Source of the DNA: Streptomyces sp. NBC_01260 | GTDB taxonomy: Bacteria > Actinomycetota > Actinomycetes > Streptomycetales > Streptomycetaceae | Assembly (NCBI RefSeq): GCF_036226405.1 | Contig: NZ_CP108464.1 | Location: 1,178,001 to 1,242,000 of the forward strand | Length of the DNA stretch: 64,000 bases | Direction: 5' to 3' | Shown here: positions 1 through 28,765 of the stretch, piece after piece | Layout: each line of letters starts with the position of its first letter | How positions within the stretch are numbered: position 1 is the stretch's first letter | Translations under genes and position numbers: made by a program | Notes under the pieces: generated by a model | What the model was told of the DNA's origin: nothing | The model's database searches: none | The model's input: only the letters and a program-made list of their open reading frames with translations

Positions 1-734
1 CGCGCGACGGCTCCGGCGACTTCACCGCCCAGGTCGGCGGCACCCCGGCCGGCCTGCGCGACGCGCTGGCTGCCACGCTCGGCAACCGCGTCGTCGAGGA
101 GGACCGCGAGATCCCGTTCCGTACGTCCCCGGCGATCGCCCGCGGCGAAGCGGCCCTGGTGCGCACCGACCCGGCGGTCGGCGCACTCGCCTCGTATGTC
201 CTGAACTCCGCCCTCGACGGCGAGGCCGAGGGGCCCCGCCCGGCCCGCCGCTGCGGAGTCGTCACCACGGACGCGGTCACCGTCCGCACCACGCTCCTCC
301 TGGTCCGCTACCGCTTCCACCTCACCCTTCCGTCCCGTACGGGCGAGAAGCAGCTGGTCGCCGAGGACGCCCGGCTGCTCGCCTTCGAGGGGATGCCGCA
401 CCGCGCCCGCTGGCTCGACGACGACACGGCGGCCGAACTCCTCGCGGCCCGCGCCTCGGCCAACACGAACCCGCAGGCGGCCCGCAACCAGATCACCCGC
501 ACCCTGGACGGCCTGGGCGAGCTGACCGCGCACCTGGAGGAGTACGGGGAGCACCTGGCCGCCGAACTGGATGCCTCGCACCGCCGGGTCCGCAAGGCGA
601 ATCGGTCCAACCAGGAGATCGTCCGCGGCTTGAAGGTCGTCCCGCAGAAGCCCGCCGACATCCTCGGCGCCTATGTCTACCTGCCCGCGAACCCGGCCGC
701 CGCCGGTGTGAACCCCGCTGGAGCTGTCGCCTGA
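1..734 (+). CDS. C-terminal part of a probable DISARM-type helicase (DrmD-like), 5' end outside window
   Basis: The reading frame is open from base 3 to a TGA at 732-734, so only the last 243 or so residues of a larger protein are visible. No helicase motif lies in this part. It is mostly charged and helical, with a probable coiled coil near 480-610 and a basic segment around RRVRKANRSNQEIVRGLK. The identification rests on context: the stop overlaps the start of an Eco57I-like adenine methylase (TGATG), the class 1 DISARM arrangement of a SNF2-like helicase (DrmD) followed by DrmMI. Several other restriction or BREX-like systems also pair a helicase with such a methylase, so this is an inference. 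The upstream sequence would settle it. Confidence 0.5.
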   Translation, partial: RDGSGDFTAQVGGTPAGLRDALAATLGNRVVEEDREIPFRTSPAIARGEAALVRTDPAVGALASYVLNSALDGEAEGPRPARRCGVVTTDAVTVRTTLLLVRYRFHLTLPSRTGEKQLVAEDARLLAFEGMPHRARWLDDDTAAELLAARASANTNPQAARNQITRTLDGLGELTAHLEEYGEHLAAELDASHRRVRKANRSNQEIVRGLKVVPQKPADILGAYVYLPANPAAAGVNPAGAVA

Positions 735-4942: not shown

Positions 4943-5952
4943 GCACGGACTCGGCGATGCCCGCCGAGGGCATACCCGCAATGAGCGCGTACGACCAGAA
5001 GGTCTGGGACGTGCTGAACGAGCACTGGGAGCGCCGCAACAACCCCCGTGGGCTGCCGAACTGGGCGGGCAACGCGCTGAGCCGTTCCGGTGAGGCCGCG
5101 GGGAAGGTCGTGAGCCGCACAAGGCAAGCCGTGCCGGAGGCCGTGAAAGCGCCGATCCGCCGCACGGGCGACGCCGTCACCGCCGCGGCCCTGCGCCCGG
5201 CCCTTGAGGGCGCGATCGCGCTGCTCGAACTGGCCAACACTGCAGCGCTGGAACTCAACGATCCGAAGAGGGTCGAGGCCCTCGCCCGTAAGCAGGGCGT
5301 CGAGCTGGACACGTTCGCCGCGCTGCGGATGGAGGACCTCAAGACCTGCGACCGGCTGCTGACGTCGAACATCCTCAAGTGGCGGACGGTCGGCGCAGCC
5401 GAAGGGGGCGCCATGGGTGTCCTGGCCATGGTCCCCGTCGCCGGCACGCTCGCGGCGATCTCCGCGGACATCCTCGTCATCCAGGTACTCAGCACCGCGA
5501 TCGCCGCGCGCGTCGCGTACTCCTACGGCTACGACGCCAGGGACCCTGACGAGCAGGCGTTCATCGAGCGTCTGGTGCGCCGGTCCTTCATGGCGCAGGC
5601 GGCGAAGGCCAAGCCGATGACCGAGGCCGCGCGGGCCGCGAACGCGATCCAGGGGCGCGTCAGGTGGTCGGAGAAGCTCCGTAGCGACCACCGTCTGCTG
5701 GCCGCCATCGAGAAGTTGTTGAAGCAGCTCGGTCCGGCCGGCGCCCGGGTTCCGGTCAAGGACGTAGCCAAGTTCGTACCGGTCGTGGGCATCCTCATCG
5801 GTGCCGGCGCGAACGCCGCCATCCTCGGTCGCGTCGCCGCGGACGCCCAGCGGTACTGCCAGACCCGGTTCCTGTGCGAGAAGTACGGGATTCCGTTGCC
5901 CGCCGCTCTGGCGACCGTCTGGGACGACGAGCCGCATACCGACGCCATGTGA
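4939..5952 (+). CDS. EcsC-family protein
   Basis: A 337-aa protein that looks like the EcsC family (PF12787). A central hydrophobic stretch (AEGGAMGVLAMVPVAGTLAA, then ISADILVIQVLST, about residues 154-185) and a second glycine/alanine-rich segment near 275-295 (VPVVGILIGAGANAAILGRV) match the membrane-associated regions of this family. The function of EcsC proteins is not established. The ATG overlaps the methylase stop (ATGA) and is preceded by GGAGAG, so the gene is translationally coupled to the methylase and probably belongs to the same defence operon, where it could attach the system to the membrane or act as an accessory effector. That role is inference only. A later start at 4981 (MSAYDQ) is possible. 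Confidence 0.75.
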   Translation: MSTDSAMPAEGIPAMSAYDQKVWDVLNEHWERRNNPRGLPNWAGNALSRSGEAAGKVVSRTRQAVPEAVKAPIRRTGDAVTAAALRPALEGAIALLELANTAALELNDPKRVEALARKQGVELDTFAALRMEDLKTCDRLLTSNILKWRTVGAAEGGAMGVLAMVPVAGTLAAISADILVIQVLSTAIAARVAYSYGYDARDPDEQAFIERLVRRSFMAQAAKAKPMTEAARAANAIQGRVRWSEKLRSDHRLLAAIEKLLKQLGPAGARVPVKDVAKFVPVVGILIGAGANAAILGRVAADAQRYCQTRFLCEKYGIPLPAALATVWDDEPHTDAM

Positions 5953-6094
5953 ACAGCGTTTCGCCGCCTCGGCATGCACGGTCGCAGGTCTGGGGACTCC
6001 TCCTCGAGAGCCCGCCCCTCGGCCCGAGGCCAGTCCCCGACACAGCGGGGAAGAACAGTCCGGTAGGTCTCACACCCTCGGGGGGATGATCGTC

Positions 6095-7741
6095 ATGGAA
6101 CCGCGCGGCTACCGCATGGTCGTGTCGACTGAGCAGAGCTTCGTCGACACCTGCGCTATCGCGGAACGGCAGTTGTACACATGGCTCGGCGAGAAGCGGT
6201 ACGACACCTCCGGAATCGACGAGGGTCGGACCGACATCGCCCCGCACGTCTTTCTGGACCGTGACTCCGCCTCAGGACGGAAGGGATCGTACAGCCGGTG
6301 GCGTATGCGGGAGACGCCGTCCGCCGACTCGGGTACCTGGCAGTCGACCCTCGTCGTCCGCTCCGGCTCGCGGGAGGACGAGCGCCGCACCTGGGTCCAG
6401 GTCGACATCGAGCACCAGCCCGCGCGGGAGGACCAGTTCCCCACCCCCGCCAAGCCCCCGCGGCTCGCACGCCTGCTCCTGGACACCCTGGAGGCCCGAG
6501 ACGTCCTCGCTGACGTCGCAACCGCTCCGGCCTTCATCGAGGCGGACGACGTCGACGACCTGATCGAGGAGCTCTGCGACGCGGGACGCAGGATGCCCGT
6601 CGTCATCGCCTCCGTGCCGTATGGGCAGAACCCGGACACCTGGTCGAAGAACGTCGTGGAGCCCCTCTTCCAACATCTGCACGGGCTGGCCGTGCTGTAC
6701 GTCCTCACCCCCGGGGCGCAGTCGCTGCTCAACCGGGCGCTGGAGCTCCACCCCGTGTTCGGCGGCGGTGTGCGCACCTACCTGCCGGGCGTCGACCCGG
6801 CCTGGCGGCCGGACGCCCAGCGCCACCCCGTGATGTCCCGTCGGACCATTGAGGCCAACCCGCGCAAAGCTGCGGCGGTGCTCGCAGTCCTCCCCCAACG
6901 GCTTGCCATGCGCCAGCCGCTGCCAACCGCTCTCCTCAGCGTCCCACGCCTGCGGGCCCGCCCCCGCCCCGCCGTCGACGGTGCCGACCTTGCCGCGCTC
7001 CGCTCGGAGAACGTGACCCTCACCGAGATGCTGGGCGAGGCGGAGCGCGCGGAGTCCGTCCGCGTCAGCGAGGTCAACGACCTCTACGCGGAGCTCGCCC
7101 GCACCGAGCGCAGCAGTGAAGAACTGCGCGACGAGAACGAGGAGTTGTACGACAAGTTCCAGGAGTTCCAGAACACCGTCCGCTTCCTCCGCGGAAGGCT
7201 GGACGCCGCCGGAGACCACTCCGCCCGGCACGCCCAGGTCGACACCCCGGACGTCAGCTACCCGGAGACGTTCGCCGACCTTCTCGACCGGTTGCACGAG
7301 TTGCCCCGCATCACCTTCACCGGCGCCGCCAAGACCACGCGCGGCCTGGACAGCCAGTCGGTCGACAACTGGCTGCGGGTCGCCTGGGACGGGCTGCTGG
7401 CGCTGAACGAGTTCGCCGAGGCTTCCAGCGGTGCGTCGTTCTCGGGCGACTTCCTCAGCTGGTGCAAGTCGGACGTCAACGGCTCGCTCTCCTTCCCGGC
7501 TGCCAAGGTGAAGATGCGCGAGTCGGACTACGTGGCCAACAACGGGAAGTTGCGCACGGAACGCATGCTTCCGGTCCCCGAGGCAGTGGATCCCTCCGGC
7601 CAGGCCTTCATGCAGGCCCACTTGAAGATCGGCGGCGGCAACACGATCGCCCCTCGCCTCCACTTCTTCGACGACACACCCCGCAGCGGGCTGCTCTACG
7701 TCGGCTACCTCGGCCCCCACCTGCGGAACTCTCTCACCTGA
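6095..7741 (+). CDS. Coiled-coil protein of unknown function in the methylase operon
   Basis: I do not recognise this protein of about 548 residues. The open frame extends upstream to 5801, but that part overlaps the EcsC gene. ATG 6095 has a G-rich ribosome site (GGGGGG, 6080-6085) at the right distance; ATG 6086 is an alternative. Residues 1-120 look globular. Residues 125-260 hold alternating strands and helices (MPVVIASVPYG, GLAVLYVLTPG). A clear coiled coil spans about 310-370 (LTEMLGEAERAESVRVSEV and following). The C-terminal 150 residues form a compact domain ending GLLYVGYLGPHLRNSLT, where the repeated GYLGPHL-type ending suggests a conserved fold. The gene lies 142 bp after the EcsC gene on the same strand and may be a sensor or adaptor of the same system. 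Confidence 0.65.
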   Translation: MEPRGYRMVVSTEQSFVDTCAIAERQLYTWLGEKRYDTSGIDEGRTDIAPHVFLDRDSASGRKGSYSRWRMRETPSADSGTWQSTLVVRSGSREDERRTWVQVDIEHQPAREDQFPTPAKPPRLARLLLDTLEARDVLADVATAPAFIEADDVDDLIEELCDAGRRMPVVIASVPYGQNPDTWSKNVVEPLFQHLHGLAVLYVLTPGAQSLLNRALELHPVFGGGVRTYLPGVDPAWRPDAQRHPVMSRRTIEANPRKAAAVLAVLPQRLAMRQPLPTALLSVPRLRARPRPAVDGADLAALRSENVTLTEMLGEAERAESVRVSEVNDLYAELARTERSSEELRDENEELYDKFQEFQNTVRFLRGRLDAAGDHSARHAQVDTPDVSYPETFADLLDRLHELPRITFTGAAKTTRGLDSQSVDNWLRVAWDGLLALNEFAEASSGASFSGDFLSWCKSDVNGSLSFPAAKVKMRESDYVANNGKLRTERMLPVPEAVDPSGQAFMQAHLKIGGGNTIAPRLHFFDDTPRSGLLYVGYLGPHLRNSLT

Positions 7742-7828
7742 GCCACCCTCGGCCCGCCGCCGGGAGACGCGCGCACGCAACAGCCGCCCGCCCCCGATTC
7801 CCCTCGGTGACGGGCGACTCCGGGCCAC

Positions 7829-8020
7829 TCAGCGCGTCGACGCGAAGCCCAGGAACGACGTCCACCCTTCGCGCCCCACCGCGAAGGCGGGCCGCTCAAC
7901 ATCCTTGGAGTCCCGTACGTGGACGGCCTGTTCGGCGAAGGCGACCTCCACGCAGCTGTCGCCCTGACTGCCGCTGTAGCTGGACTTGAACCAGGAAAGT
8001 TCCGTCCTACCGCTGTTCAT
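7829..8020 (-). CDS. DUF397 domain protein
   Basis: A 63-aa protein with the standard DUF397 pattern: WFKSSYSGSQGDSCVEVAF, then VRDSKDVERPAFAVGREGW. DUF397 proteins are small actinobacterial partners of Scr1-type XRE regulators, with toxin/antitoxin-like or developmental roles reported for some pairs. Its ATG is at 8018-8020 and overlaps the stop of the upstream regulator (ATGA), with GAGGAG as ribosome site, so the two are translationally coupled. Confidence 0.9.
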   Translation of the reverse strand: MNSGRTELSWFKSSYSGSQGDSCVEVAFAEQAVHVRDSKDVERPAFAVGREGWTSFLGFASTR

Positions 8021-8904
8021 TGCTCTCCTCGTAGTCGCTCCAGCAAGGCCCGGGATTTTTCTGGGCTCAGGGCCTGCGAGCGCAGTGTTTCATAACGGTG
8101 ACAGACCACACTCACCTCTTTCGGGTCAGAGATCAGCCGCCCGTTCTCCTGACCCTCCGAGTACCCGAACCGACGCCCCTCCCTCGTCTCCAGGACCTGC
8201 ACCGGCCCGTCCAGACAAGCATGTAACCCGCCCTCCAGCGGCACCACCTGCAGTGTCACGTTGCGCGGCGCACTGCGCTCCAGCACATGGTCGAGCAGTC
8301 CGCGCATCGCCTCCGCATCCCCGAACCTTCGCCGGAACACGTGTTCCTCGACGATGAAGCTGAACGGCACGGTCGGCCGCCGACGCATCAGCTCTTGGCG
8401 TTCCATCCGGGCACTGAGCTGCACCTCCAGCTCCTCATCCGTCCGCAACGGAATCGTGCCCTCGAACACCGCCCGCGCGTACCCCTCCGACTGCAACAGC
8501 CCCGGCACCAGCCGGCACTCGTACGTACACAGGCTCGCCGCCTCCCGCTCCAGCCGGGCCCACCTTCGGAACCACGCCGCGAGACCGGCCTCCCCGCGGC
8601 TGAGGTGGCGGGCCGCCTTCCGTATGGCGCCCGTGTTGCCGAGCGCCTCCTCCGCGCGCTCGACAAACGCCTCGTCCGGCATCCGGCGGCCCAGCTCCAC
8701 CGACTCCACGGTGTGCCTGGAATACCGGACCCGGGCGGCGAGTTCCGCCCGGCTGAGCCCCGCGTGCTCACGCAGCGCCTGGACGACCGCGCCGAACGTG
8801 CGCAGGCTGTCCGACGGCTGAGGTTCGCGCTCCCAGTCGCCCTCTGGCGCGGCCCGCGTCCCGACACCCCCGGTTCGCTCCCGGTCCTCGTCGACGTAGT
8901 CCAT
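8017..8904 (-). CDS. XRE-family regulator of the Scr1 type
   Basis: The protein (295 aa from ATG 8904) has an N-terminal helix-turn-helix at about residues 30-85 (FGAVVQALREHAGLSRAELA, then YSRHTVESVELG). It is followed by the long C-terminal domain typical of Scr1-family proteins (WFRRWARLEREAASLCTYEC, and the FRRRFGDAEAMRGLLDHVLE segment). The longer open frame back to 9132 lies in the divergent promoter and is not needed, because ATG 8904 has a strong GAGGAGAGGG site. It is cotranscribed with DUF397 and divergent from an ATP-binding protein, the trio seen at whiJ/abaA-like loci in Streptomyces that affect development and antibiotic production. The ligand and targets are not visible. Confidence 0.9.
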   Translation of the reverse strand: MDYVDEDRERTGGVGTRAAPEGDWEREPQPSDSLRTFGAVVQALREHAGLSRAELAARVRYSRHTVESVELGRRMPDEAFVERAEEALGNTGAIRKAARHLSRGEAGLAAWFRRWARLEREAASLCTYECRLVPGLLQSEGYARAVFEGTIPLRTDEELEVQLSARMERQELMRRRPTVPFSFIVEEHVFRRRFGDAEAMRGLLDHVLERSAPRNVTLQVVPLEGGLHACLDGPVQVLETREGRRFGYSEGQENGRLISDPKEVSVVCHRYETLRSQALSPEKSRALLERLRGEQ

Positions 8905-9065
8905 CCGCGGCCCCTCTCCTCGCACCCGTACCCTGCCGCACAGATCGTGCCCACACAGCGTGACGAACACCGCACCGTACTGTCCACCCCATGTGTCCGT
9001 ACGCTGACTCCGCGTACGTGGTGTCAGCCTCGCCATGGGCACCCAGCACCCACCACTCTGGCGCC

Positions 9066-9671
9066 ATGAACCAAGCGCTCCCCCAACCGGCACAACCAGT
9101 ACGTACGTTCTCGCAGTTGCTGTCGTCCACACCGCGCGGTGCCCGTCTCGCCCGCCTTCTCACCGTGACCGAGCTGCAGTCCTGGGATGCACCGCCCGAC
9201 CTCACGGAGCGTGCCGAACTCGTCGTGGCCGAGCTCGCCGCGAACGCCGTCCTTCACGGTCGCGTCCCCGGCCGCGACTTCCGCCTGGCGCTCGCCTACG
9301 CTCCGCCCACCGAGCACCTCCGCATCGAGGTCACCGACGCCCGCGGCGACCGGCGACCCGAACTGCCGCCCTACGAGCCCGCATCGCTCGGGGACGGCGG
9401 GCGCGGGCTGCTGCTCGTCGACGCGCTCGCCGACCACTGGGACTGCGCGCCCTATCCGCCCTCCGGCAAGACCGTACGCGCCGAGCTCTCGTCAGCGCGG
9501 TCGGTCTCAGCGCCACCGCGGCCCACGGAAGCCGTTGAAGCCACGGGGTGCGTAGCAGAGCACATCAGCGGAACTTGGGGCGCACAGACCCTGCCTCTGA
9601 CTCACCTGTTCAGTCCGGGATCTGCGGGCCCCTCAACAGGGCCGGCCTCACTCCTGCCGCGCACCTTGTAG
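9066..9671 (+). CDS. ATP-binding protein, anti-sigma-factor-like HATPase
   Basis: A 201-aa protein with a GHKL/HATPase_c core: N box ELVVAELAANAVLHG at about residues 52-66, G1 box TDARGDRRPEL near 92, and G2 box GDGGRGLLLVDALADHW near 110. This matches small Streptomyces RsbW/SpoIIAB-like proteins that sit next to XRE/DUF397 pairs. They may act as anti-sigma or kinase-like regulators, although many are uncharacterised. The domain proper ends near residue 140 (KTVRAEL). The last 60 residues are proline/glycine-rich and unlike the family, so the true end may have been altered by a frameshift. The gene is divergent from the XRE regulator across about 160 bp. Confidence 0.85.
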   Translation: MNQALPQPAQPVRTFSQLLSSTPRGARLARLLTVTELQSWDAPPDLTERAELVVAELAANAVLHGRVPGRDFRLALAYAPPTEHLRIEVTDARGDRRPELPPYEPASLGDGGRGLLLVDALADHWDCAPYPPSGKTVRAELSSARSVSAPPRPTEAVEATGCVAEHISGTWGAQTLPLTHLFSPGSAGPSTGPASLLPRTL

Positions 9672-9736
9672 GTGATGCCTGACTCGGGCGGCTCGGCCTT
9701 CGTAGCTCACGTGAACAGTGACCTGAGTGACACATG

Positions 9737-9773
9737 ACACGCCTTGTGCCATCGGAACACGCCTTGTGCCATC
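9737..9773. repeat. Two 17-bp direct repeats with 20-bp period upstream of the Rhs gene
   Basis: ACACGCCTTGTGCCATC occurs at 9737-9753 and again at 9757-9773, separated by three bases. The 20-bp period puts both copies on the same face of the helix. They lie 62 bp upstream of the PrsW-Rhs start in a 163-bp region without genes. Binding by a cooperative regulator is the natural guess, but no partner protein is identified. Confidence 0.7.
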
Positions 9774-9834
9774 AGAATCGGGCCCACATGCTCGCCCTCA
9801 GGAGTATTCGCGATTCGGCGGGGGTGCGTGAGGG

Positions 9835-12800
9835 ATGGCGTTCTGGATGGCCGCGGCGTCGGTCTGGGCGGTGCTGCAGCTGTTACTCCTGTCCTGGCCT
9901 GCCCGGACGGTGCGCTGGCCCTTGGTGGCGCTGGCCTTCGGCGTCGGAATGTACGGCTGCGGTGTCGCCTCGATGTTCGTCGAGCTGGTAACAGCACGGC
10001 AGTTGGCAGCCTCTCGGCACGAGTCGCTGAGCGCGGTCATGGACACGGTGTCCTGGACGACGGCCCCGGCGGCCGAAGAGTTGATCAAGATCCTGCCGCT
10101 GCTGATCGCCGGTTGGGCGCTGCGCAGGCGGATGCAGTGGGGGCTGACCGACTTCGTGGTCCTGGGCAGTGCCACGGGGGCGGGCTTCGGCCTGCTGGAG
10201 TCACTCTCGATGTACGGCGGCTCCGCGGGCCGGGCCGTCGACCTGCCCGCCGGCGGCTGGCGGATCGTCGAGAGCCTTGGCTCACATCCGTACGTCCCCG
10301 ACTTCTGGCACATCGTGGGGAGTCTGTTCCCCGCCTCGACCGGCACTGAAGAACTCGAACAGCCGGTCATGCCCTACGACCTACACATCTTCGCCAGCAC
10401 ACTGGGCGGACTCGCGGTCGGCCTGCTGTGGTGCGCACGCCGCCCACTGCTCCGGGCAGCGGGGTTGCTGCCCCTGGCCGCAGCCGTCGCCATCCATGGG
10501 GTGAACAACTACGCCGCCGTCTTCTCCAACAGCGACGACGACACCGCGATGTGGTGGCGGGAACAGCTGACCGAGACCTGGGGACTATGGATCGTCCTCG
10601 GCACGCTGGCCGCCGCCTGGTTGTGGGACTGGCGGCGCGCCCGCCTCGGCAAGGACCGCGAGCCCGGAGTCCGGCTGACCGCCGAGCGCGAAGGCCGCAC
10701 CTCCTGGCAAGCCCTCCTCGACTACGCACTGCTGCATGTCCCGGCCACCTGGATCATTGCCTTCGGATATGCCCGCCGGCGCCGAGCCCTGCTGTACGCA
10801 GCGGCCCATCCGCGCAGCGACCCCGACCGGCTCGCCGCCCTGCGCGAGGCACTGGCCGAGCAGACCCGGCGCATGGATGCCACCCACAACCGGGAATCGT
10901 GGCAGGGCACTTCACTACGTGAGCTGTGGAAGCGGGCCCGTGCACAGCGCCGCCGATGGCCGCTGCAGGAGAAGCTGCTCCTCGTACTCGGTCTGCTCAT
11001 CGCCATCCCCTCCCTCCTCTATCTGGGCGTGGGCTCCTTCAAGTCCACCCAGGACCTGCAGAAGTACTTCGCCGAGGGCACCGGCCTGCGCCTGCTGATC
11101 GGCGTGGCCCTCGCGGGCCTGGCCCTGACCGCGTGGCGCCTGGCGCTGACCTTGCGCGGCTACCGTCCGGCCGCCGCCCAGCCGCAGGCCGAGGCCCTTG
11201 CCCTGGTCCAATTCCGCCTTGTCCTGTGCACCGGCTCCCTGGCGATCGGTCTTCTGCTCCTGTACCGCTGGGAGGAGATCGCGGACGACGGGAACCTGTT
11301 CAACGCCTACGAAACCTTGGGCACCGGCGGTTTCCTACTGGAGAAGCTCCTCGAGGTCGACCTCCCGCTGCTGTTGAGCATCGCCATGCTGGCGCTGATG
11401 TTCACCCCGATGGGTGGCGCGGCCGGACTCCTGATGGGCGGTTCGATGTCCGAGCTGCTCCTTGGCGCACTGGCTCCGCGGCTGGTTGCGCCACTCGCGG
11501 CCCGGCTTGGTACCCGGTTGGCGGCCCGGTCGGTGATGGGCTGGGCACGGGGTGCTTTGGGCCGGGGGCGGGGTGCGTTCGCGCGGGGCCGGAACCGGCT
11601 CCGGCACGGCCGGACCGACCCGGTGGATCTGGCGACGGGTCGGATGTTCCTGACCCTCACCGACCTGGAGCTGCCCGGGACACTGCCGCTGGTGTTCTCC
11701 CGGCGGGTGGACTCGGGCTATCGGGCCGGGGGGTGGTTCGGACCTACCTGGGCCTCCACGGTCGATCAGCGCCTGGAGTTCGACGAGCACGGGGCGGTGT
11801 TCTTCACCGCGGACAGCTGGCTCCTTGCCTACCCACATCCGCTCACGGGTGGCGCACCGGTGTGGCCGGCCGAGGGAGACCGGTGGCCGCTGGCCCTGAC
11901 CGATAGCGGCACGTACACCCTCACCGACCCGGACAGCGGCTGGATACACCGGTTCGCCCCGGCCGGCGAGGGCCTCGCCCTGCTGCGGCAGATCACGGAC
12001 CGCCACGGTAACCGGATCACCTTCTCCTACGACGCCGAAGGCGCCCCGACCGAGATCACGCACTCCGGCGGTTACCGGCTGCAGCTCACCACCGCCGGTA
12101 ACCGGGTCACCGCCCTGCACCTGGGCGAGACCCTGGTGCAGAGCTACCGCTACGACCAGGCGGGAAATCTCACCGAGACGGTCAACTCCTCGGGTCTACC
12201 ACTGGCCTTCGGCTATGACGGCGCGGGCCGGATCACTTCCTGGACCGACACCAACCACCGCTCCTACGCGTACACCTACGACGAGCAGGACCGGGTGATC
12301 GCCGAGGGCGGTGAGGGGGGCCACTACACCTGCAGCCTGGAGTACGACGACACCCATCCCGAGCACCCCGGCCTGAAGGTCACCACCCTCACCTCGGCCG
12401 ACGGGGCCGTCTCCCGCTATCTGATCGACCACCGGCATCTGGTGGTCGGCGAGATCGACCCGGTCGGAACGCTCACCCGCACCACCTACGACGACCACGG
12501 CCGCACCCTGGCCGAGACAGATGCCCTGGGCCGCACCACGGGCCTGCGCTACGACGCTTCCGCACAGCCGGCCGCGGTGATTCACCCGGACGGCAGCGAG
12601 ACCCTCATCTCCTGCGACAGCACAGGAAACCCGGTCCAGATCACCGGCCCCGACGGTGCAGTCTGGCGCCAGACCTTCGACGCGGCGGGCAACCGCACCA
12701 CCCTGACAGACCCGCTCGGCGCGAGCACCCACTACCTCTACGACCCCCACGGCGGCCTCCTCGCCGTCACCGACCCACTGGGCGCCACCACCCGCGTCCA

Positions 12801-15078
12801 CTGCAACCCGGCCGGCCTGCCGGTGGAGATCACCGACCCGCTCGGTCACACCACCCGCCTGGAGCGGGACGCCTTCGGCCGCGTCAGCTCCGAGACGGAC
12901 CCCCTCGGCGCGGTTACCTCCTACACCTGGTCGCCGGAAGGGCAGTTACTGAGGTGCACCACCCCCGACGGGGCCACCGAAGCGTGGGCCTATGACGGTG
13001 AAGGCAACCGCACCAGCCACACCAACCCGGCAGGCGGGGTGACGTACTACGAGTACACCCATTTCGACCTGCTCACCGCCCGCACCGACCCTGACGGGGC
13101 CCGCTACACCTTCGCCCACGACGCCCAGGCCCGCCTCACCCAGGTCACCAACCCCCAGCACCTGACCTGGAGCTACACCTACGATCCGGCCGGACACCTC
13201 ATATCCGAGACCGACTTCGACGACCGCACCCTCACCTACGACCACGACCCGGCAGGCCAACTCACGGCCTCCACCGACGCCTTGGGTCAGATCACCCGCT
13301 ACACCTACGACACCCTGGGCCGCCTCGCCGCCAAGGACGCAGCGGGCCGACAGTCAACCTTCGCCTGGACCCCCACCGGCGACCTCGCCCGAGCCACCAA
13401 CCCGGATGCGCGGCTCTCCCGGGAGTACGACCCGGTGGGCCGGCTGCTCTCGGAGACCGTCAATGGCCACGCCCTGCACCTGTCCTACGACCCGGCCGGA
13501 CAGCTCACCGGCCGCCGCACCCCCACCGGCGCCGAAAGCAGCCACACCTACGACCTGTCGGGCCGACGCACCACCCTGACCACCGCCGGCCGCGAACTGA
13601 CCACCGCCTACGACGCGGCGGGACGCCAGACCCGCCGCCGCTGGAGCACCGGCCAGGCGCTCACCCAGAGCTGGGACCCCGCAGGGCGCCTCCTCGCATC
13701 GCAGCACACCGCACCCACCGGCCAGACACTCCTCGAGCGGGCCTACACCTGGCGCCAGGACGGCTACCTCACCTCCACCGGCGAGGAGCACTACACCCTC
13801 GACCCGGCCGGCCGTATCACCGCCGTTCAGGCCGCTAACTGGAGCGAGGCCTACGCCTACGACCGGGCGGGCAACCAAACCCACGCCGCCTGGCCCGAAC
13901 GACACCCCGGCTCCGACGCCGCAGGCCCACGCACGTACACCGGCACCCGCATCCACACCGCCGGCACCCTCCGCTACGAACACGACGCCGCCGGCCGCAC
14001 CACCCTGCGCCAAAAAACCCGCGACTCCCGCAAACCCGACACCTGGCGCTACACCTGGGACACCGAGGACCACCTCACGGCGGTCACCACCCCCGACGGC
14101 ACCCGCTGGCACTACCTGTATGACCCCCTCGGCCGCCGCATCGCGAAGCAACGCCTCACCGACAACGACACCATCATCGAGGAGACCCGCTTCACCTGGC
14201 ACGACACCACTCTCATCGAGCAAGTCGCCACCTCCCCCGACTGGCCCGGACACCAAAGCCTGACCTGGGACTACGACGACACCAGCCTCGTTCCCCTGGC
14301 CCAGACCACCCGCTACACCCCGGCCGCCGACGCACCCCCATCCGAGATCGACACCCGCTTCCACACGATCATCACGGACCTCATCGGCACCCCCACCCAC
14401 CTCGTCGACGAAACCGGCACGATCACCTGGCAGACCCGCACCACCCTGTGGGGCACCACCACCTGGAACCAGGGCGCCACCGCCTACACCCCCCTCCGCT
14501 TCCCCGGCCAATACCACGACCTCGAAACCGGCCACCACTACAACCTCCACCGCCACTACGACCCCGAAACCGCCCGCTACCTCACCCCCGACCCCCTCGG
14601 CCTCGAAGCCGCGGACAACCCTCTGGCATACGTCCACAACCCCCATAATTGGAGCGACCCGCATGGCCTGGCACCCTGCCGACCGCTGATTTGGCAAGTA
14701 GAAAATCAGGGTGCCGGGTCAAGGAATATCTGGACAACCGACCTCAGCCATGTGACCGGAAGGACAGCCAGATCCAGGAACCGTGCAATCGATATAATGA
14801 TCAGGCGCGACTTCCCCAACCTGAGGTTCACGCATCAGCCTAAATACAGCCCATGGGTGAGCACCGGGATCGCGAGGCGTGGAACTGGAACACAGATAGG
14901 GAAGAGTCGCTTCGGGAGTTCAAACGATCTGCGTAACACTCTTGTACACGAAGAGCTTCACCATCGATGGTTCTCCAGAAATCTGAGCGGCGCTCACCAT
15001 CCGAGAAATGGATCGGGGAATAGTGCACGTTTCTACGGGATCGTGGAGCGGTACATGAGAATGAGAGGATGGGAATGA
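9835..15078 (+). CDS. PrsW-type intramembrane protease fused to Rhs polymorphic toxin with HExxH tip
   Basis: This 1747-aa membrane-anchored toxin has three parts. Residues 1-270 look like a PrsW glutamic-type intramembrane protease: EELIK at 81-85, GAGFGLLES with E123, HIFAST with H185, and IHGVNNY with H222, set in hydrophobic helices. More transmembrane segments follow at about 380-550. From about residue 595 a DUF6531-like entry (DPVDLATGRMFLTLTDLELP) leads into dozens of YD/Rhs repeats, closed by the conserved core end FPGQYHDLETGHHYN...DPLGLEA near 1560-1590. The last 135 residues, after DPHGLAPCRP, are a variable tip with HEELH at 1705-1709, a zinc-peptidase-like motif. The DNA is clearly less GC-rich from about 14.68 kb on, as expected for an exchanged tip. 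Two in-frame TTA codons (9883 and 12946) predict bldA dependence. Confidence 0.85.
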   Translation: MAFWMAAASVWAVLQLLLLSWPARTVRWPLVALAFGVGMYGCGVASMFVELVTARQLAASRHESLSAVMDTVSWTTAPAAEELIKILPLLIAGWALRRRMQWGLTDFVVLGSATGAGFGLLESLSMYGGSAGRAVDLPAGGWRIVESLGSHPYVPDFWHIVGSLFPASTGTEELEQPVMPYDLHIFASTLGGLAVGLLWCARRPLLRAAGLLPLAAAVAIHGVNNYAAVFSNSDDDTAMWWREQLTETWGLWIVLGTLAAAWLWDWRRARLGKDREPGVRLTAEREGRTSWQALLDYALLHVPATWIIAFGYARRRRALLYAAAHPRSDPDRLAALREALAEQTRRMDATHNRESWQGTSLRELWKRARAQRRRWPLQEKLLLVLGLLIAIPSLLYLGVGSFKSTQDLQKYFAEGTGLRLLIGVALAGLALTAWRLALTLRGYRPAAAQPQAEALALVQFRLVLCTGSLAIGLLLLYRWEEIADDGNLFNAYETLGTGGFLLEKLLEVDLPLLLSIAMLALMFTPMGGAAGLLMGGSMSELLLGALAPRLVAPLAARLGTRLAARSVMGWARGALGRGRGAFARGRNRLRHGRTDPVDLATGRMFLTLTDLELPGTLPLVFSRRVDSGYRAGGWFGPTWASTVDQRLEFDEHGAVFFTADSWLLAYPHPLTGGAPVWPAEGDRWPLALTDSGTYTLTDPDSGWIHRFAPAGEGLALLRQITDRHGNRITFSYDAEGAPTEITHSGGYRLQLTTAGNRVTALHLGETLVQSYRYDQAGNLTETVNSSGLPLAFGYDGAGRITSWTDTNHRSYAYTYDEQDRVIAEGGEGGHYTCSLEYDDTHPEHPGLKVTTLTSADGAVSRYLIDHRHLVVGEIDPVGTLTRTTYDDHGRTLAETDALGRTTGLRYDASAQPAAVIHPDGSETLISCDSTGNPVQITGPDGAVWRQTFDAAGNRTTLTDPLGASTHYLYDPHGGLLAVTDPLGATTRVHCNPAGLPVEITDPLGHTTRLERDAFGRVSSETDPLGAVTSYTWSPEGQLLRCTTPDGATEAWAYDGEGNRTSHTNPAGGVTYYEYTHFDLLTARTDPDGARYTFAHDAQARLTQVTNPQHLTWSYTYDPAGHLISETDFDDRTLTYDHDPAGQLTASTDALGQITRYTYDTLGRLAAKDAAGRQSTFAWTPTGDLARATNPDARLSREYDPVGRLLSETVNGHALHLSYDPAGQLTGRRTPTGAESSHTYDLSGRRTTLTTAGRELTTAYDAAGRQTRRRWSTGQALTQSWDPAGRLLASQHTAPTGQTLLERAYTWRQDGYLTSTGEEHYTLDPAGRITAVQAANWSEAYAYDRAGNQTHAAWPERHPGSDAAGPRTYTGTRIHTAGTLRYEHDAAGRTTLRQKTRDSRKPDTWRYTWDTEDHLTAVTTPDGTRWHYLYDPLGRRIAKQRLTDNDTIIEETRFTWHDTTLIEQVATSPDWPGHQSLTWDYDDTSLVPLAQTTRYTPAADAPPSEIDTRFHTIITDLIGTPTHLVDETGTITWQTRTTLWGTTTWNQGATAYTPLRFPGQYHDLETGHHYNLHRHYDPETARYLTPDPLGLEAADNPLAYVHNPHNWSDPHGLAPCRPLIWQVENQGAGSRNIWTTDLSHVTGRTARSRNRAIDIMIRRDFPNLRFTHQPKYSPWVSTGIARRGTGTQIGKSRFGSSNDLRNTLVHEELHHRWFSRNLSGAHHPRNGSGNSARFYGIVERYMRMRGWE

Positions 15079-15503
15079 TCGAGCAGTCGGTAGAATTTAT
15101 GCAAGAATGCACAACTTGCAACCATCCCTGCGAGGGGTGGATGACTCAATTCATCAAGCAGCAGAAATTGCACTGGGCCGTCGAATGGTCCTGCAGTGAC
15201 TGCGGAATTGAAGCGCACGACGAAGAGTCCGGAGTAGCTCCTGACTATATTCGACAAGCCCTCCTTTCTGAACATGGATCAGCTTGCATCGTTTCTAAAT
15301 CCGTCAACAAAAGAGGCAGATCACTGAAGGTCTTCCGCGATGTATTTGAGCTGCCCATTCAAGGTGCGAAGAATTATTCTGCGCAACTGTCAACAACAGG
15401 GTGGCGAGGAACTTACGTAGAAGTTTCCTTGCTCTCCGAACTCCTCGAGTCGGCAGGGATCGAAGTTGAAACATGCGACCGGCCCGACGCAGTTGATCTC
15501 TAA
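15075..15503 (+). CDS. Probable immunity protein for the Rhs tip
   Basis: A 142-aa protein with no family I recognise. It starts within the stop codon of the Rhs gene (ATGA, 15075-15078) with AGAGG as ribosome site; ATG 15069 is an alternative start. The N-terminus carries a possible zinc knuckle (CTTCNHPC near residue 13, CSDC near 40). The C-terminal half is a mixed strand/helix domain. Its base composition is far lower in GC than the surrounding genes and matches the Rhs tip, so tip and this gene moved together. Position and coupling are those of a cognate immunity protein; the identity of the toxin activity is unproved. Confidence 0.75.
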   Translation: MIEQSVEFMQECTTCNHPCEGWMTQFIKQQKLHWAVEWSCSDCGIEAHDEESGVAPDYIRQALLSEHGSACIVSKSVNKRGRSLKVFRDVFELPIQGAKNYSAQLSTTGWRGTYVEVSLLSELLESAGIEVETCDRPDAVDL

Positions 15504-15815
15504 GCTGACTTGAGTTGGCTTGCCCGTCGGAATGGCTTGGCTTGCGAACGAGCGCGACCCCTTAGGGCCTGCCGGAAATCAACACGGCGGTTTGATCTGG
15601 GGTGTTCACTGATCGGCGGATCCGGTGATCAAGGAAACGCCGGATGAGCGACACCACCATCGGCTCGAAATGCGCGACGTGTGCGCCATGGGCAACGAGG
15701 ACAAGGGCTTCTCCTGCCTGACGGCAATGGTACAGGCTCCGCGCGCCGCCGCACGGTTCGACGGAATGCGCCCCTCTGGCCACGGCGCGGCCGTATTTCC
15801 GCGGCTCGCCGACCT
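15504..15815. other. Gene-free remnant DNA downstream of the Rhs immunity gene
   Basis: About 310 bp with no convincing gene on either strand. Short open frames exist but lack good ribosome sites and do not resemble any family I know. With the GNAT and AbiEii wreckage that follows, this is best read as decayed DNA at a recombination-prone Rhs downstream end. I could not identify insertion-sequence ends. Confidence 0.5.
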
Positions 15816-15985
15816 TCATGCCTGCGAGCGCAATGTCGCCCACTCGCTCTCCAGCATCGAGTGCACGACCGAGCCGTGCCACCGCCCTGCCTTCTCAATG
15901 TGCTGCCGAATGACGCCCTCCTCGACCATGCCGGCCTTGGTCATGGTTCGGGCCGCGACCTCACCAGGGACGGAATACCTGGTCA
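15816..15985 (-). pseudogene. C-terminal remnant of a GNAT acetyltransferase
   Basis: On the minus strand one frame reads RTMTKAGMVEEGVIRQHIEK, then AGRWHGSVVHSMLESEW, ending at a TGA (15816-15818). This is the familiar end of RimJ/RimL-type N-acetyltransferases, where a KAGM.EEGVLR segment leads to a DS.VYS.L..EW ending. Only about 55 residues survive; the frame joins the end of the AbiEii-like gene with no acetyl-CoA-binding region. It is a deletion remnant. Confidence 0.55.
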
Positions 15986-16634
15986 GCAGTTTTCGTCGTG
16001 CAACCGTTCGCCCAGGTCAGTCGCCCACTCCCCCGCCCACGTCTTGAGCTCGGCGACCTGTCGCAGGGTGAGCCCGTAGGCGGTGTAGTCCTCGTCCTCG
16101 TACCAGTCCGCACCCGTCAGCCGGTCGCGAAGGTCCGCGAGACTGAACTCGTCCTGGGCGCGCCGACGACCGAGGGACTCAAGGTCGGCGAGGGAACGGT
16201 GGCGAGACGCGGCCTGGACGTCGATGAGGTCACGGACCGTGCCTCGGTCGGCGAGAGCCCGTACCTTGGTGCCGATCACGTCATCCAACGAAAGAACGGG
16301 ACCGTACGGAGTCTGGGCGGGTGGCGCCCAGAACGCCTCTTTGAGTACGCCGACCTCGCACGCCTCGCCGGTGACTGGGTCCGTGACCAAAAAGCGCCCG
16401 CTGAGCGGGTCCGTCTAGACATGGGTGGTCTGCCAGCCACGCTCAGTGAGGCCTGCCGTGAGAGAGGCGACGATCTCGCGCATCGGCGCAGGGTTCTCGG
16501 TGGCAACGTCGAGGTCCCGACTGAATCGCTCCACCAGACCGTGCGCCTGCACGGCGTATCCACCGGTAAGCACCAGAGGAACGGAGATCGATGATGTCCG
16601 CTAGGAGCCTCTCGTGCAGCGGCGGCAGCTTCAC
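15983..16634 (-). pseudogene. Broken AbiEii/AbiGii-type nucleotidyltransferase toxin gene
   Basis: The protein would belong to the AbiEii nucleotidyltransferase toxins of type IV abortive-infection systems. It starts at GTG 16634, overlapping the upstream stop (GTGA), as VKLPPLHERLLADIID. An extra base near 16583 shifts the frame; the next frame continues VPLVLTGGYAVQAHGL and ERFSRDLDVATENPAPM, containing the GGYA and SRDLDV nucleotidyltransferase motifs. An in-frame TAG follows at 16415-16417. The remainder (LSGRFLVTDPVTGEACEV, VLSLDDVIGTKVRALADR) keeps the family's C-terminal DDVIGTKV..L..R motif. With one frameshift and one stop it cannot make an intact toxin, unless both are sequence errors. 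Confidence 0.8.
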
Positions 16635-16990
16635 GCAGCGGTCCCCGCCGACGGAGCGGACCGGACCAGCTCCGGAAAGGCGTCTTCCCACGCATCACGC
16701 AGATGCGGGCTGATCAGCCTGCGCAGTACGGGCCACTGCTCCAGCAACAGCCTTCGGTTCAGGAAGACGGCCAGATCCTCACGCATCCCCTCCGCGAGGA
16801 CGGTCCGGTACAGGGTCATGCACGACTTGGGGCGGTCCAGGCTGTAGTTCGTGCGGCCGGACCAGACAATGTGAAGTGGCAGATCGACCGCCCCGTGAAC
16901 AGGACCGTCGAGCTCCTCCAGGCGATGGGGCAGCCGACGGCGGTACCGGTCACGCAGTGTCTCGGCTCGGGGGGCGGGCGGAACGTTCAT
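16631..16990 (-). CDS. Hypothetical partner of the AbiEii-type gene, possible antitoxin
   Basis: About 119 aa from ATG 16990; the frame is open back to 17038, which would give 135 aa. Neither start has a well-spaced ribosome site. The protein is arginine/leucine-rich with mostly helical prediction (LRDRYRRRLPHRLEELDG, FLNRRLLLEQWPVLRRL). It ends in GTGA overlap with the AbiEii-like gene, so the two formed an operon in which this is the first gene, the place of an antitoxin. It does not look like the winged-helix AbiEi antitoxin. It seems intact although its partner is broken. Confidence 0.55.
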   Translation of the reverse strand: MNVPPAPRAETLRDRYRRRLPHRLEELDGPVHGAVDLPLHIVWSGRTNYSLDRPKSCMTLYRTVLAEGMREDLAVFLNRRLLLEQWPVLRRLISPHLRDAWEDAFPELVRSAPSAGTAA

Positions 16991-17203
16991 GTCCTTATTA
17001 TCGCTGATGCGCACGGTGACACCGCAAAATTGAGGCATCCTCCCGGCTTCCCCAGGACGTGAAGATCACCTCTACGTGGGCGGGCCTCCGGGCCCGGCGA
17101 AATCGCGCCAAGATCGACCCACACCTCAAGAATGCGTTGACATCGCCAACACACCTCCCTACGGTTGCTCTCCTCGCATGGGGGATCGAAGGGACGACAG
17201 CAC

Positions 17204-19039
17204 GTGCAGCTGGAAGGCGCCGGAGGACCGGCCCCGGACTTCACAGCGGAATCCCTGCTGAATGCGGCGGAACAGGCCTTTCTGCGAGCCGAGTTCCAGG
17301 TCGTTCGACCGCTTCTGCAGCAACTCCAGGGAGAGTTCGGCCTGTCCGGCACCGGTCCCGTCGCCGTGCGCTACGACGCTCTGCTCGGCGCGCTGGCCGC
17401 GCGAGCCGGCAACTGGGCCGAGGCGGTGCGGCGGTGCCCCGAGGACCTGGACGAGGTGGCGACCGGCGTCCTCCACTCCCTCGCGCTGAATGCTCTCCGT
17501 GAATTGGGTCAGGAAGGCCGCCACACCGACGCCGGGATCGCGTCAGTCGCCATCGTGCTGTGGGCCTATCTCCTGGACGAAGAGGACCCTGGGAACTTCC
17601 GCGCGCTGCTCACCGAACGGCGCGGTGCGCCTGTGGCCGATGCCCTCTGGGGCCAGAGCCTCGCCCGGCTGCGCGATCGTATCTCCAGCCTGCTGCACGC
17701 CCTGGACGTCCGGGGCGGACGGGACGACCTCGCCGCATGGCACACAGCCTGGCACGTCCAGCTCATGGACCCGACCGTCATCCCTGGCTACCTCCCGACA
17801 GACGCTGGACCGCATGCCCTGGTCGACCTCGAGGAAGCCTCCTGGCATCTCATCGACGAAGGCAGAGGCGGCGACCTTCTCACCGCCTTCACCGCCCGCC
17901 GCCCCGACCCCGGCACCTGGCCGACCAAGCTGCTCGGCCACCGCACGTGCGCCATCCCGCTGGCCCGGGCCCTCGCCACCCGGGGAATGGACCGGGTACG
18001 GGGCGGCAAGTGGAGCGAGGCACTTGCCGACTTCGGTACGGCGGTGCGACTCGGGCACACCCTCCCGGAGGACGAGCGGGCTGCCGTCCGCCGGGCGGGG
18101 AACAATGTCGGGCGCAGCCGTACCGGGGGCAACAACTCTCCCCTCGTACGCATCGAAGGACTCGAGCAGGCCCATGCACTCCTGCCCGGGGACACCGCTC
18201 TGGCTGCCGAACTGACCGCAGAACTGGTCCGTCAGGGCCAGGAGATCGTCGGCTCCGACCCCACGATGAGCCGGTGTCGCTTCGCCCGAGCCCTGACCCT
18301 GGCGCCCGGGCACCCGGACGCCCGCGCAGGTCTCGACGACCACCTGAGGGCGGATCTGCGCCGGGCGCTCAACGGTGCGGACGTGGGGGACGGACTCGCC
18401 GCCGAGAAGGTGCGGGACCTGCTCAAGCGGGATCCGGACTGTGCGGCGGCACGGATGTGGCTGGAGGACCACTACGCGACACTGGCCGTCTCCGCCGCGG
18501 TCCGGGGACATACGGCCGACGCACAGCATGCAACCCACGCGATGCTCGTCTGCGTCGGCCCAGAAGACTTCCACGACGCGGCAGACGTCGACGAGCAGCT
18601 CATCGACCTCCTGGTCACCGCCGCCGATGGCCTCGTCCCGGAAGGAGACCGGGACGCCCTTGAGCACCGGGTCGAACTGCTGCACACGGCCCTGACGCTG
18701 TCCGATCCAGCCGGCCGCGACATCCGGAAAGACCTCGACACAGCGCTCCTCGACCTCGCGGAGCATCTGGAGAGCGCAGCGCCGCCTTCCGCCGTCATCG
18801 AGCTGTTCCTGCGGGATCTGATGCGGACCGGGACGGAAGGGCGATTCGATCAGGTCGTGAAGGCTGCCTATCTGCACCGCGCCAGGGACCGCGAAGAGGC
18901 GGGAGACCTGGGAGGCGCACGGCGCGACCGAGACTGCGCCGAACGGATCGGTGCCGGGATGCCGCCCCAAGTCCCGCTTTTCGGCCCCGCTCTCCGCCCC
19001 TCCCGCCGAGCCGACCTCGAACAGGACACCCTCTTTTGA
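17204..19039 (+). CDS. Helical-repeat (TPR-like) protein, first gene of the Hsp70 operon
   Basis: A 611-aa protein from GTG 17204, chosen because GAAGGGA lies about ten bases upstream; the open frame extends back to 17165. It is built of alanine/leucine-rich helical pairs, such as LLNAAEQAFLRAEFQVVRPL at the N-terminus, GAVRLGHTLPEDERAAVRRA-like repeats in the middle and CRFARALTLAPGHPDARAGL near residue 360, reading like degenerate TPR units. No catalytic motif was seen. The stop overlaps the next small gene (TTGA), then a GrpE-like gene and an Hsp70 follow, so it may be a client-binding or co-chaperone subunit. That role is inferred from context. Confidence 0.75.
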   Translation: MQLEGAGGPAPDFTAESLLNAAEQAFLRAEFQVVRPLLQQLQGEFGLSGTGPVAVRYDALLGALAARAGNWAEAVRRCPEDLDEVATGVLHSLALNALRELGQEGRHTDAGIASVAIVLWAYLLDEEDPGNFRALLTERRGAPVADALWGQSLARLRDRISSLLHALDVRGGRDDLAAWHTAWHVQLMDPTVIPGYLPTDAGPHALVDLEEASWHLIDEGRGGDLLTAFTARRPDPGTWPTKLLGHRTCAIPLARALATRGMDRVRGGKWSEALADFGTAVRLGHTLPEDERAAVRRAGNNVGRSRTGGNNSPLVRIEGLEQAHALLPGDTALAAELTAELVRQGQEIVGSDPTMSRCRFARALTLAPGHPDARAGLDDHLRADLRRALNGADVGDGLAAEKVRDLLKRDPDCAAARMWLEDHYATLAVSAAVRGHTADAQHATHAMLVCVGPEDFHDAADVDEQLIDLLVTAADGLVPEGDRDALEHRVELLHTALTLSDPAGRDIRKDLDTALLDLAEHLESAAPPSAVIELFLRDLMRTGTEGRFDQVVKAAYLHRARDREEAGDLGGARRDRDCAERIGAGMPPQVPLFGPALRPSRRADLEQDTLF

Positions 19040-19326
19040 CCACCGGCGCTCCCTCCCCTCAAAACCCTGGGACCGAACCGTCCCCTCTCCCCTGGTTCGG
19101 CCCCACCCTCCACGAACTCCTCCCGGACGCCCCGCTCGGTACCCGTCCCCTGGGTCTCCGGAGGCTGGCGGCGCCTGAGCTCACTGCCTCCGCGGCTCTT
19201 AAGGATTCGGCCAGACACGCGCTCGTTCGCCGGGCCAACCAGAATTCGCACACACCCGTCGACGCCCTCGTCGCCGAGATGCTCACCCCGCCCCTGCCCG
19301 GTCACAGCACCGAGGAGCGCCCATGA
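19036..19326 (+). CDS. Small hypothetical protein between TPR-like and GrpE-like genes
   Basis: A 96-aa protein, apparently starting with TTG at 19036 inside the stop of the previous gene (TTGA), and overlapping the GrpE-like start (ATGA) at its end. The N-terminus is proline-rich; the second half has a short helical region (LRRLAAPELTASAALKDSAR). No family is recognised. The overlaps on both sides support it as a real coupled gene despite the weak start codon. Confidence 0.55.
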   Translation: MTTGAPSPQNPGTEPSPLPWFGPTLHELLPDAPLGTRPLGLRRLAAPELTASAALKDSARHALVRRANQNSHTPVDALVAEMLTPPLPGHSTEERP

Positions 19327-19931
19327 CCGACCCCGGTCCCACCTCCGCTGTCGGCGGCGGCCCGCCGTCCGAGCTCGACAAGATGCGGCACAGGGTCGCC
19401 ATCCTGTCCGAAAAGCGGAAGACCGCCGAAGGGCAGCTGAGGGGCCTGCTGGGTTCGCTGCTCGCTCTGGACGACGTGCTGGCCGACACGCGTGTCCGCG
19501 CCGACGCCCTGCACACGGCTCGGTCTGCCCGCCAGACGGCTTCGGCCGCGCTCGCACTGGGCGAGCAGATTTATGCGGCCCACCTGATGCTGCGTCGGGA
19601 ACTCGAGCAGCACGACGTCAGGCCGATGGTTGTCGTAGGCAGGGCCGTCGACCCGGCGGAGATGCGCGTCGTGGACACCGAGCCGCACCCGAGCCGTCCG
19701 GAAGGCACCGTGCTGCGGGAGAAGGCCACCGGCTTCCGTCAGGGGTCCGCCACGTTGAGGCCCGCTGAGGTTGTCGTCGCAGTGCCTGGGCCCGCGCCCG
19801 ATCTCGTACAAGAGCCCGACCCCGGGGCCGGACCTGTGCGTGCTCAACCTCGGCGCACCACTCGTTCCCAACGGCAGCTTCTGCGCAAGCCGTCGGTGGT
19901 TGCAAAGCGCCGCCGATCCCGCCGCGCCTGA
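19323..19931 (+). CDS. GrpE-like nucleotide exchange factor
   Basis: A 202-aa protein with GrpE architecture. A long N-terminal helix region is at about residues 15-85 (LDKMRHRVAILSEKRKTAEG, LLGSLLALDDVLADTRVRAD). It is followed by a small beta domain near 95-150 (VRPMVVVGRAVDPAEMRVVD, PEGTVLREKATGFRQGSATL, RPAEVVVA) that parallels the canonical G..FDP..HEAV, GTV..V...GY..G...LRPA.V.V pattern. It would release ADP from the Hsp70 encoded 51 bp downstream. The basic C-terminal tail (RTTRSQRQLLRK, AKRRRSRRA) is unusual and could bind nucleic acid. It is a divergent accessory copy, not the housekeeping grpE. Confidence 0.8.
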   Translation: MTDPGPTSAVGGGPPSELDKMRHRVAILSEKRKTAEGQLRGLLGSLLALDDVLADTRVRADALHTARSARQTASAALALGEQIYAAHLMLRRELEQHDVRPMVVVGRAVDPAEMRVVDTEPHPSRPEGTVLREKATGFRQGSATLRPAEVVVAVPGPAPDLVQEPDPGAGPVRAQPRRTTRSQRQLLRKPSVVAKRRRSRRA

Positions 19932-19982
19932 CCGCGCGTCCGCTCCTCCGCCATACCAAGACGATCAGGAAGTACGCCTTTC

Positions 19983-28702: not shown

Positions 28703-28765
28703 AGGTGGATCCTTCGATGTGATGTTCGTGGTGAGAGCCGGTGCCGACAAGCGGGGTGTGCGCGT

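Follow-up and report, generated by a model that had tools for sequence, protein, structure and literature searches.

What does an intramembrane protease do at the head of an Rhs toxin? The question is raised by a gene of Streptomyces sp. NBC_01260 that lies in the 64,000-nt stretch of DNA analysed here (NZ_CP108464.1, positions 1,178,001-1,242,000; hereafter the window, in whose positions all coordinates are given) and that joins a PrsW module, an Rhs shell and a Tox-MPTase5 tip in one chain (Table 1). The original prediction, made from the DNA letters alone, held that the built-in protease frees or senses the toxin at the membrane, perhaps by self-cleavage, in place of the autoproteolysis of other Rhs toxins. 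Both the fusion and the proposal date from 2012: the excerpted sections of Zhang et al. (2012; PMC3482391) describe PrsW-RHS-toxin fusions in Streptomyces and propose export with autoproteolysis. Their example (gi 307326465, Streptomyces) shares the N-terminal PrsW, the RHS repeats and a C-terminal toxin with ours, but its tip is Ntox9. The fusion studied here belongs to that class, with a tip not listed for it in those sections. Judged by title or the opening of the abstract, no other paper on this fusion was among those listed in a literature search for PrsW with toxins or RHS repeats that covered few subscription papers. New here are a ~590-aa module that comes in two forms, a topology prediction for it, the exchange of PrsW modules and type VII secretion (T7SS) signals on related toxins, and a candidate immunity protein.

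Architecture and integrity of the gene

The domains were called with Pfam and NCBIfam profiles, and PrsW, DUF6531, RHS, Rhs core-associated and Tox-MPTase5 all exceeded their cut-offs. PF13367 (PrsW) matched residues 28-153 with 38.2 bits (cut-off 23.5), the RHS repeats scored 314 bits, Rhs_assc_core reached 74.8 bits at 1538-1612 (cut-off 32.5) and PF15641 (Tox-MPTase5) 137.2 bits at 1636-1746 (cut-off 27.3). A single unbroken polypeptide and a recognizable PrsW domain had both been predicted, as had a complete Rhs core with a variable tip; the chain does hold the full Rhs set of DUF6531 plug, YD repeats and core-associated domain, and tips differ among family members (Tox-MPTase5, Scabin-like, Tox-REase-3, colicin-type DNase and RNase A in the Rhs forms). 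An ATG at 9847 (residue 5), at which the consensus of the family begins, is a possible alternative start codon. The G+C content is 0.70 in the PrsW module and Rhs region, 0.54 in the tip and 0.50 in the immunity gene.

Table 1. Features of the PrsW-Rhs locus, in window positions.
Feature	Position	Strand	Basis or remark
PrsW-Rhs-Tox-MPTase5 polymorphic toxin, 1747 aa	9835..15078	+	single ORF, open throughout
PrsW core, residues 1-269, ~7 TM helices	9835..10641	+	PF13367 and AlphaFold2 model
EELIK (EExxK), residues 81-85 (E81, E82, K85), third TM helix	10075..10089	+	
FGLLE, which we take to be the FxxxE motif, residues 118-122 (F118, E122)	10186..10200	+	
H184, fifth TM helix	10384..10386	+	
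HGVNN (HxxxN), residues 221-225 (H221, N225), sixth TM helix	10495..10509	+	
Charged helical region, residues 265-376, predicted cytoplasmic	10627..10962	+	charges, model
Second membrane block, residues 377-527, TM helices 8-11 (our count)	10963..11415	+	
Arg-rich linker, residues 558-594, predicted cytoplasmic in Rhs forms	11506..11616	+	charges
DUF6531 / Rhs N-terminal plug, residues 595-661	11617..11817	+	profile; starts DPVDLATG
Rhs YD-repeat shell, residues 662-1537	11818..14445	+	PF05593, TIGR01643
Rhs core-associated domain, residues 1538-1612	14446..14670	+	TIGR03696
Aspartyl tip-release motif DPLGL-x17-DPHGL, residues 1586-1612	14590..14670	+	DPLGL at 1586, DPHGL at 1608
Variable toxin tip, Tox-MPTase5	14671..15075	+	PF15641; HEELH (residues 1705-1709) at 14947-14961
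Probable cognate immunity protein, 144 aa, two CxxC pairs	15069..15503	+	homologues after Tox-MPTase5 tips

A search with residues 1-600, in which the best 8000 candidates were scored, returned at least 32 proteins, 997-1780 aa long, each of which carried RHS-repeat and DUF6531 domains in its precomputed annotation. Among the matches listed, all relatives with a named organism came from Streptomyces, the closest being 96% identical (Streptomyces sp. CEV 2-1). Within the genus, 39 of 392 genomes had a module match; ten of these carried the fusion at full length, in open frames of 1739-1784 aa that all contained the Rhs part, and two further, partial rows gave frames of 1394 and 1631 aa. A search for the same fusion in other actinobacteria had been proposed as a check, and within the genus it found such fusions. 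At the level of the class the module was matched in five of 394 genomes, three of the same genus (that of the window included) and two of other genera, whose weak hits covered only part of PrsW (E 1.6e-7 and 4.5e-5). PF13367 itself matched in at least 166 of 296 class-level genomes, and fusions outside Streptomyces may be among them.

That a frameshift error between about residues 550 and 600 had fused two genes was named beforehand as one of two observations that would undo the prediction, the other being the lack of a PrsW profile hit. Such breaks do occur in the family, one fusion (locus L056, genome G354) being split over two frames of 711 and 1177 aa. However, the frame here is continuous, 31 database relatives have the same motifs joined to Rhs, and every one of the 33 Rhs-form rows aligned across the module-to-Rhs junction (P0030 from its second part on). 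Because the junction is both continuous and conserved, we regard a frameshift or assembly error as excluded for all practical purposes.

The genome of the window also has the remnant of a second PrsW module (C1:3488706-3488999; a 111-aa frame, 48% identical to residues 2-99), and in another genome (L049, G165) a PrsW-Rhs gene and a gene for a short PrsW module point away from each other, with starts ~245 bases apart.

The PrsW motifs are invariant

The published PrsW rule places EExxK in TM3, a His in TM5 and HxxxD/N in TM6 (PMC4602095, in part), and the protein studied here matches it, with N for D in the last motif, a substitution also described for type II CAAX proteases. Bacillus subtilis PrsW likewise has EExxK (TM3) and the His (TM5), with HxxxD in TM6 where ours has HxxxN, but its substrate is the anti-sigma factor RsiW. 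To our knowledge, no toxin is fused to it. The original prediction had listed EELIK, E122, H184 and H221 as the expected residues, the last three numbered one too high (as E123, H185 and H222).

All eight motif residues were invariant in the 59 proteins of a mixed alignment (19 long, Rhs-bearing forms and 40 short ones, described below). They were also kept in 32 of the 33 rows of the Rhs-form alignment (32 relatives and the query), the exception, P0030, starting after the motif region, and in 22 of 22 rows of a separate alignment made up mostly of whole-genome ORFs (17 short forms). Were the 31 invariant columns scattered at random among 622 positions, the chance of this would be 1.5e-11, a figure that overstates the significance because conserved columns cluster. 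The PrsW site is probably active.

A membrane module with two forms

The conserved unit is wider than the PrsW domain: it is a module of ~590 aa and about 11 helices that includes the second membrane block (377-527), beyond the PF13367 match. In the excerpted text of Zhang et al. (2012; PMC3482391), by comparison, most PrsW proteins have eight TM helices. The module also occurs without Rhs, on short tips. A search with the 600 residues alone found 87 proteins, 80 of them only 615-752 aa long, and 79 of these 80 had no Rhs start. These short PrsW toxins of Streptomyces have a homologous module, mostly 38-45% identical to that of the query, with the same motifs; they differ in having no Rhs shell, their tips (RNase A, CdiA_C, Gln amidase and EndoU, among others) following the module directly. 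In a tree of 113 module sequences (six dropped for coverage; quick method, midpoint root), 32 Rhs-bearing rows and two short ones formed one group (SH-aLRT 100). The two short members are P0033 (538 aa, without a recognised tip) and P0036, whose Gln amidase tip within the Rhs group suggests that Rhs was lost. One protein, P0115, has pentapeptide repeats after its PrsW module and no toxin there.

Structure prediction, which had been proposed for the membrane part, gave an AlphaFold2 model with pLDDT >= 90 in 20 of the 27 ten-residue blocks of residues 1-270. It fell below 50 at 527-551 and 578-600, the very stretches that would settle on which side the linker lies, and a model of a short form (P0038) stayed below 50 from 468 to 605. 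Foldseek comparison with the PDB returned nothing at E <= 0.001; none of the fold matches was significant, and PrsW, RCE1 and APH-1 were absent from the titles among the matches listed.

The topology given here is a prediction from loop charges. With loops assigned alternately to the inside and outside, and with helix ends and orientation set by hand from the same sequences, the 19 long forms had on average 19.1 Lys+Arg over 72 aa of inside loops and 7.0 over 110 aa of outside loops, and the bias pointed the same way in all 59 sequences. This predicts an outside N-terminus, a PrsW active site in the outer half of the membrane and an inside linker leading into Rhs. The segment before Rhs carries a net charge of +5 to +11 in the 19 long forms (mean +8.1), as against -6 to +4 for the same segment in the 40 short ones, and a more hydrophobic stretch at the linker exceeded the threshold in 31 of 40 short but only one of 19 long forms. 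The hydrophobicity of this region in the short forms suggests that its membrane side may differ between forms, and the short ones may possess an extra TM helix before the tip.

The Rhs shell retains its own tip-release motif

In the T6SS Rhs effectors Rhs1 (PMC8636562) and TseI (PMC7170923), according to the excerpts of both papers, aspartyl autoproteolysis frees the tip after the second DPLGL motif, and this cleavage is blocked by mutating both aspartates of TseI or the second one of Rhs1; their N-terminal cut adjoins a PVxxxTGE-like motif. The shell, the double DPxGL and the PV..TG junction are shared with our family. Two DPxGL motifs stood exactly 17 residues apart in 30 of the 31 rows longer than 1400 aa, the exception (P0016, 1532 aa) having no residues aligned there. 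By analogy, tip release would be expected after L1612.

At the N-terminal junction, DPVD[LMV]ATG was found in all 31 rows longer than 1400 aa, and of the self-cleavage signature D-PVxxxTGE(E) the query has D595, P596, V597 and the TG, but R603 and M604 stand in place of the glutamates; RMF follows TG in 33 of 33 family rows, so that the two glutamates needed in TseI are replaced by R and M. Rhs1 and TseI differ from our family in this, having glutamate(s) after TG, and in their T6SS-linked N-terminus. We considered lost N-terminal autocleavage as a reason for PrsW and rejected it: the two T7SS-signal Rhs proteins examined also lack the first glutamate, with R or K at that position, so this lack does not set the PrsW forms apart.

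A probable immunity gene follows the tip

The ORF after the toxin begins within the end of the toxin gene, and a homologue lay directly downstream of the tip in all eight Tox-MPTase5 loci examined at the DNA level (the window, five loci from a tip survey of 295 genomes and two further PrsW fusions, L050 and L054). The homologues of the seven other genomes are 29-44% identical to the window's 144-aa protein, which no Pfam model matched at its cut-off. Orphan homologues lie ~460, 870 and 690 bases downstream of the fusions in L055, L056 and L057, respectively, three loci that yielded no Tox-MPTase5 tip; this is the pattern that tip replacement would leave if the former immunity genes persist. 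On this linkage, which is observed, the 144-aa protein is likely the cognate immunity protein, and the locus has the swappable tip with a probable immunity gene downstream by which Rhs polymorphic toxins are recognised. In the excerpted table of Zhang et al. (2012; PMC3482391), the entry for Tox-MPTase5 gives T2SS and RHS but only a dash in the place that names immunity proteins for other toxins; the 144-aa family is a candidate antidote for Tox-MPTase5 missing from that table.

The C-terminal half of the protein looks L7/L12-like by eye, and a role as an L7/L12 decoy was considered and dropped. In a profile search against PDB sequences L7/L12 (E 0.017) ranked behind a zinc-finger chain (0.006), and an hhalign comparison with the L7/L12 of the same genome yielded a probability of 2%.

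N-termini are exchanged on one kind of Rhs core

Tox-MPTase5 tips occurred in six of 295 genomes of the genus. Two of these toxins (L060 and L062, the latter broken over two frames) carry the T7SS signal PF21725 at the N-terminus (301 and 332 bits) in place of the PrsW module. They have the Tox-MPTase5 tip, the same immunity family as the window and a related Rhs core, 51-57% identical to the query, as compared with 64-66% for five PrsW forms. A single type of Rhs core plus tip thus occurs with exchanged N-termini, and the PrsW module holds the place of a trafficking domain, in line with the proposal of Zhang et al. (2012). A third toxin (L061) has a distant Rhs (about 25%), an SpvB match below cut-off and, by eye, a signal peptide.

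As for export partners, the excerpted text of PMC12704120 describes the passage of very large Rhs/WapA proteins through the Gram-positive envelope as unresolved. Neighbouring ORFs (chosen by third-position G+C, grouped by BLAST) held no family common to all 11 loci (the window and ten other fusions), the widest-shared families occurring at eight (XRE-regulator-like by eye) and seven (sigma-factor-like by eye). The genome of the window has one contractile-sheath match, far from the locus.

The window likely holds a defence island, with DISARM-type genes resembling DrmA (734-4942, +) and DrmB (23676-28750, -) and a DrmMI-like methylase. Between 28766 and 35873 lie a gene matched by the MzaA profile (by eye like a sigma factor), an AAA gene with the look of McrB followed by a 478-aa gene (McrC by look) and a UvrD/GajB-like helicase. 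The protein encoded at 19983-22484 resembles Hsp70 by eye, and its middle holds several zinc-ribbon-like repeats with Cys pairs.

What might the PrsW module do?

We infer, as the probable reading, that the locus directs a polymorphic Rhs toxin of the PrsW class at competing bacteria and supplies the matching immunity gene. The toxin's first ~590 residues would be a polytopic module in the membrane by which the Rhs protein is trafficked or anchored, in the position that a T7SS signal takes in other Rhs toxins of Streptomyces; the shell would enclose a swappable metallopeptidase tip, cut free after L1612 by its own aspartyl motif, and the neighbouring 144-aa protein would protect the producer. 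Because the predicted PrsW site lies towards the outer side, its substrate would more likely lie outside the cytoplasm, in the module itself or in a partner, than in the Rhs linker. The self-processing export of Zhang et al. (2012), shared by the original prediction, has PrsW pass the chain through the membrane core, cut it and free the toxin. The strict conservation of the PrsW motifs is in keeping with this, as are the short forms, which have no Rhs and hence no Rhs autoprotease, leaving PrsW the only protease recognised before the tip; the absence of TseI's N-terminal glutamates points the same way, but is not PrsW-specific. In the long forms, however, linker and active site are predicted to lie on different sides, which makes cutting of the linker by PrsW unlikely on that prediction (the model being unsure there), and the retained tip motif argues against a built-in protease that replaces Rhs autoproteolysis. 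We consider self-processing export doubtful, and the mechanism as first proposed only partly supported.

The module might instead be a membrane sensor whose toxin acts inside the producing cell, in abortive or toxin-antitoxin fashion. The predicted cytoplasmic position of Rhs would suit this, and DrmA, DrmB and other defence-like genes share the window. Yet of the window ORFs at 4000-21000, a slice outside which the DrmA and DrmB genes lie, a single family (the XRE-regulator-like one) recurs beside the ten fusions, and T7SS signals, which point outward, are found on Rhs cores and tips of this kind; we think an own-cell role improbable. It is also conceivable, if rather improbable, that PrsW faces away from the cargo: the module would hold the shell at the cytoplasmic face, and a cut in a target within or outside the membrane (an outer loop of the module or a contact partner) would gate the shell's hand-over, replacing the T7SS, while the short forms, their tip put outside by the extra helix, would represent an ancestral or alternative mode of secretion.

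Some genomes place a T7SS signal, and others a PrsW module, ahead of related Rhs cores that bear the same tip; this natural set offers a clean comparison for the 2012 proposal that PrsW is an export device. If the last scheme is true, an outward-facing PrsW would provide a one-protein delivery route in Streptomyces for the same kind of Rhs cargo.
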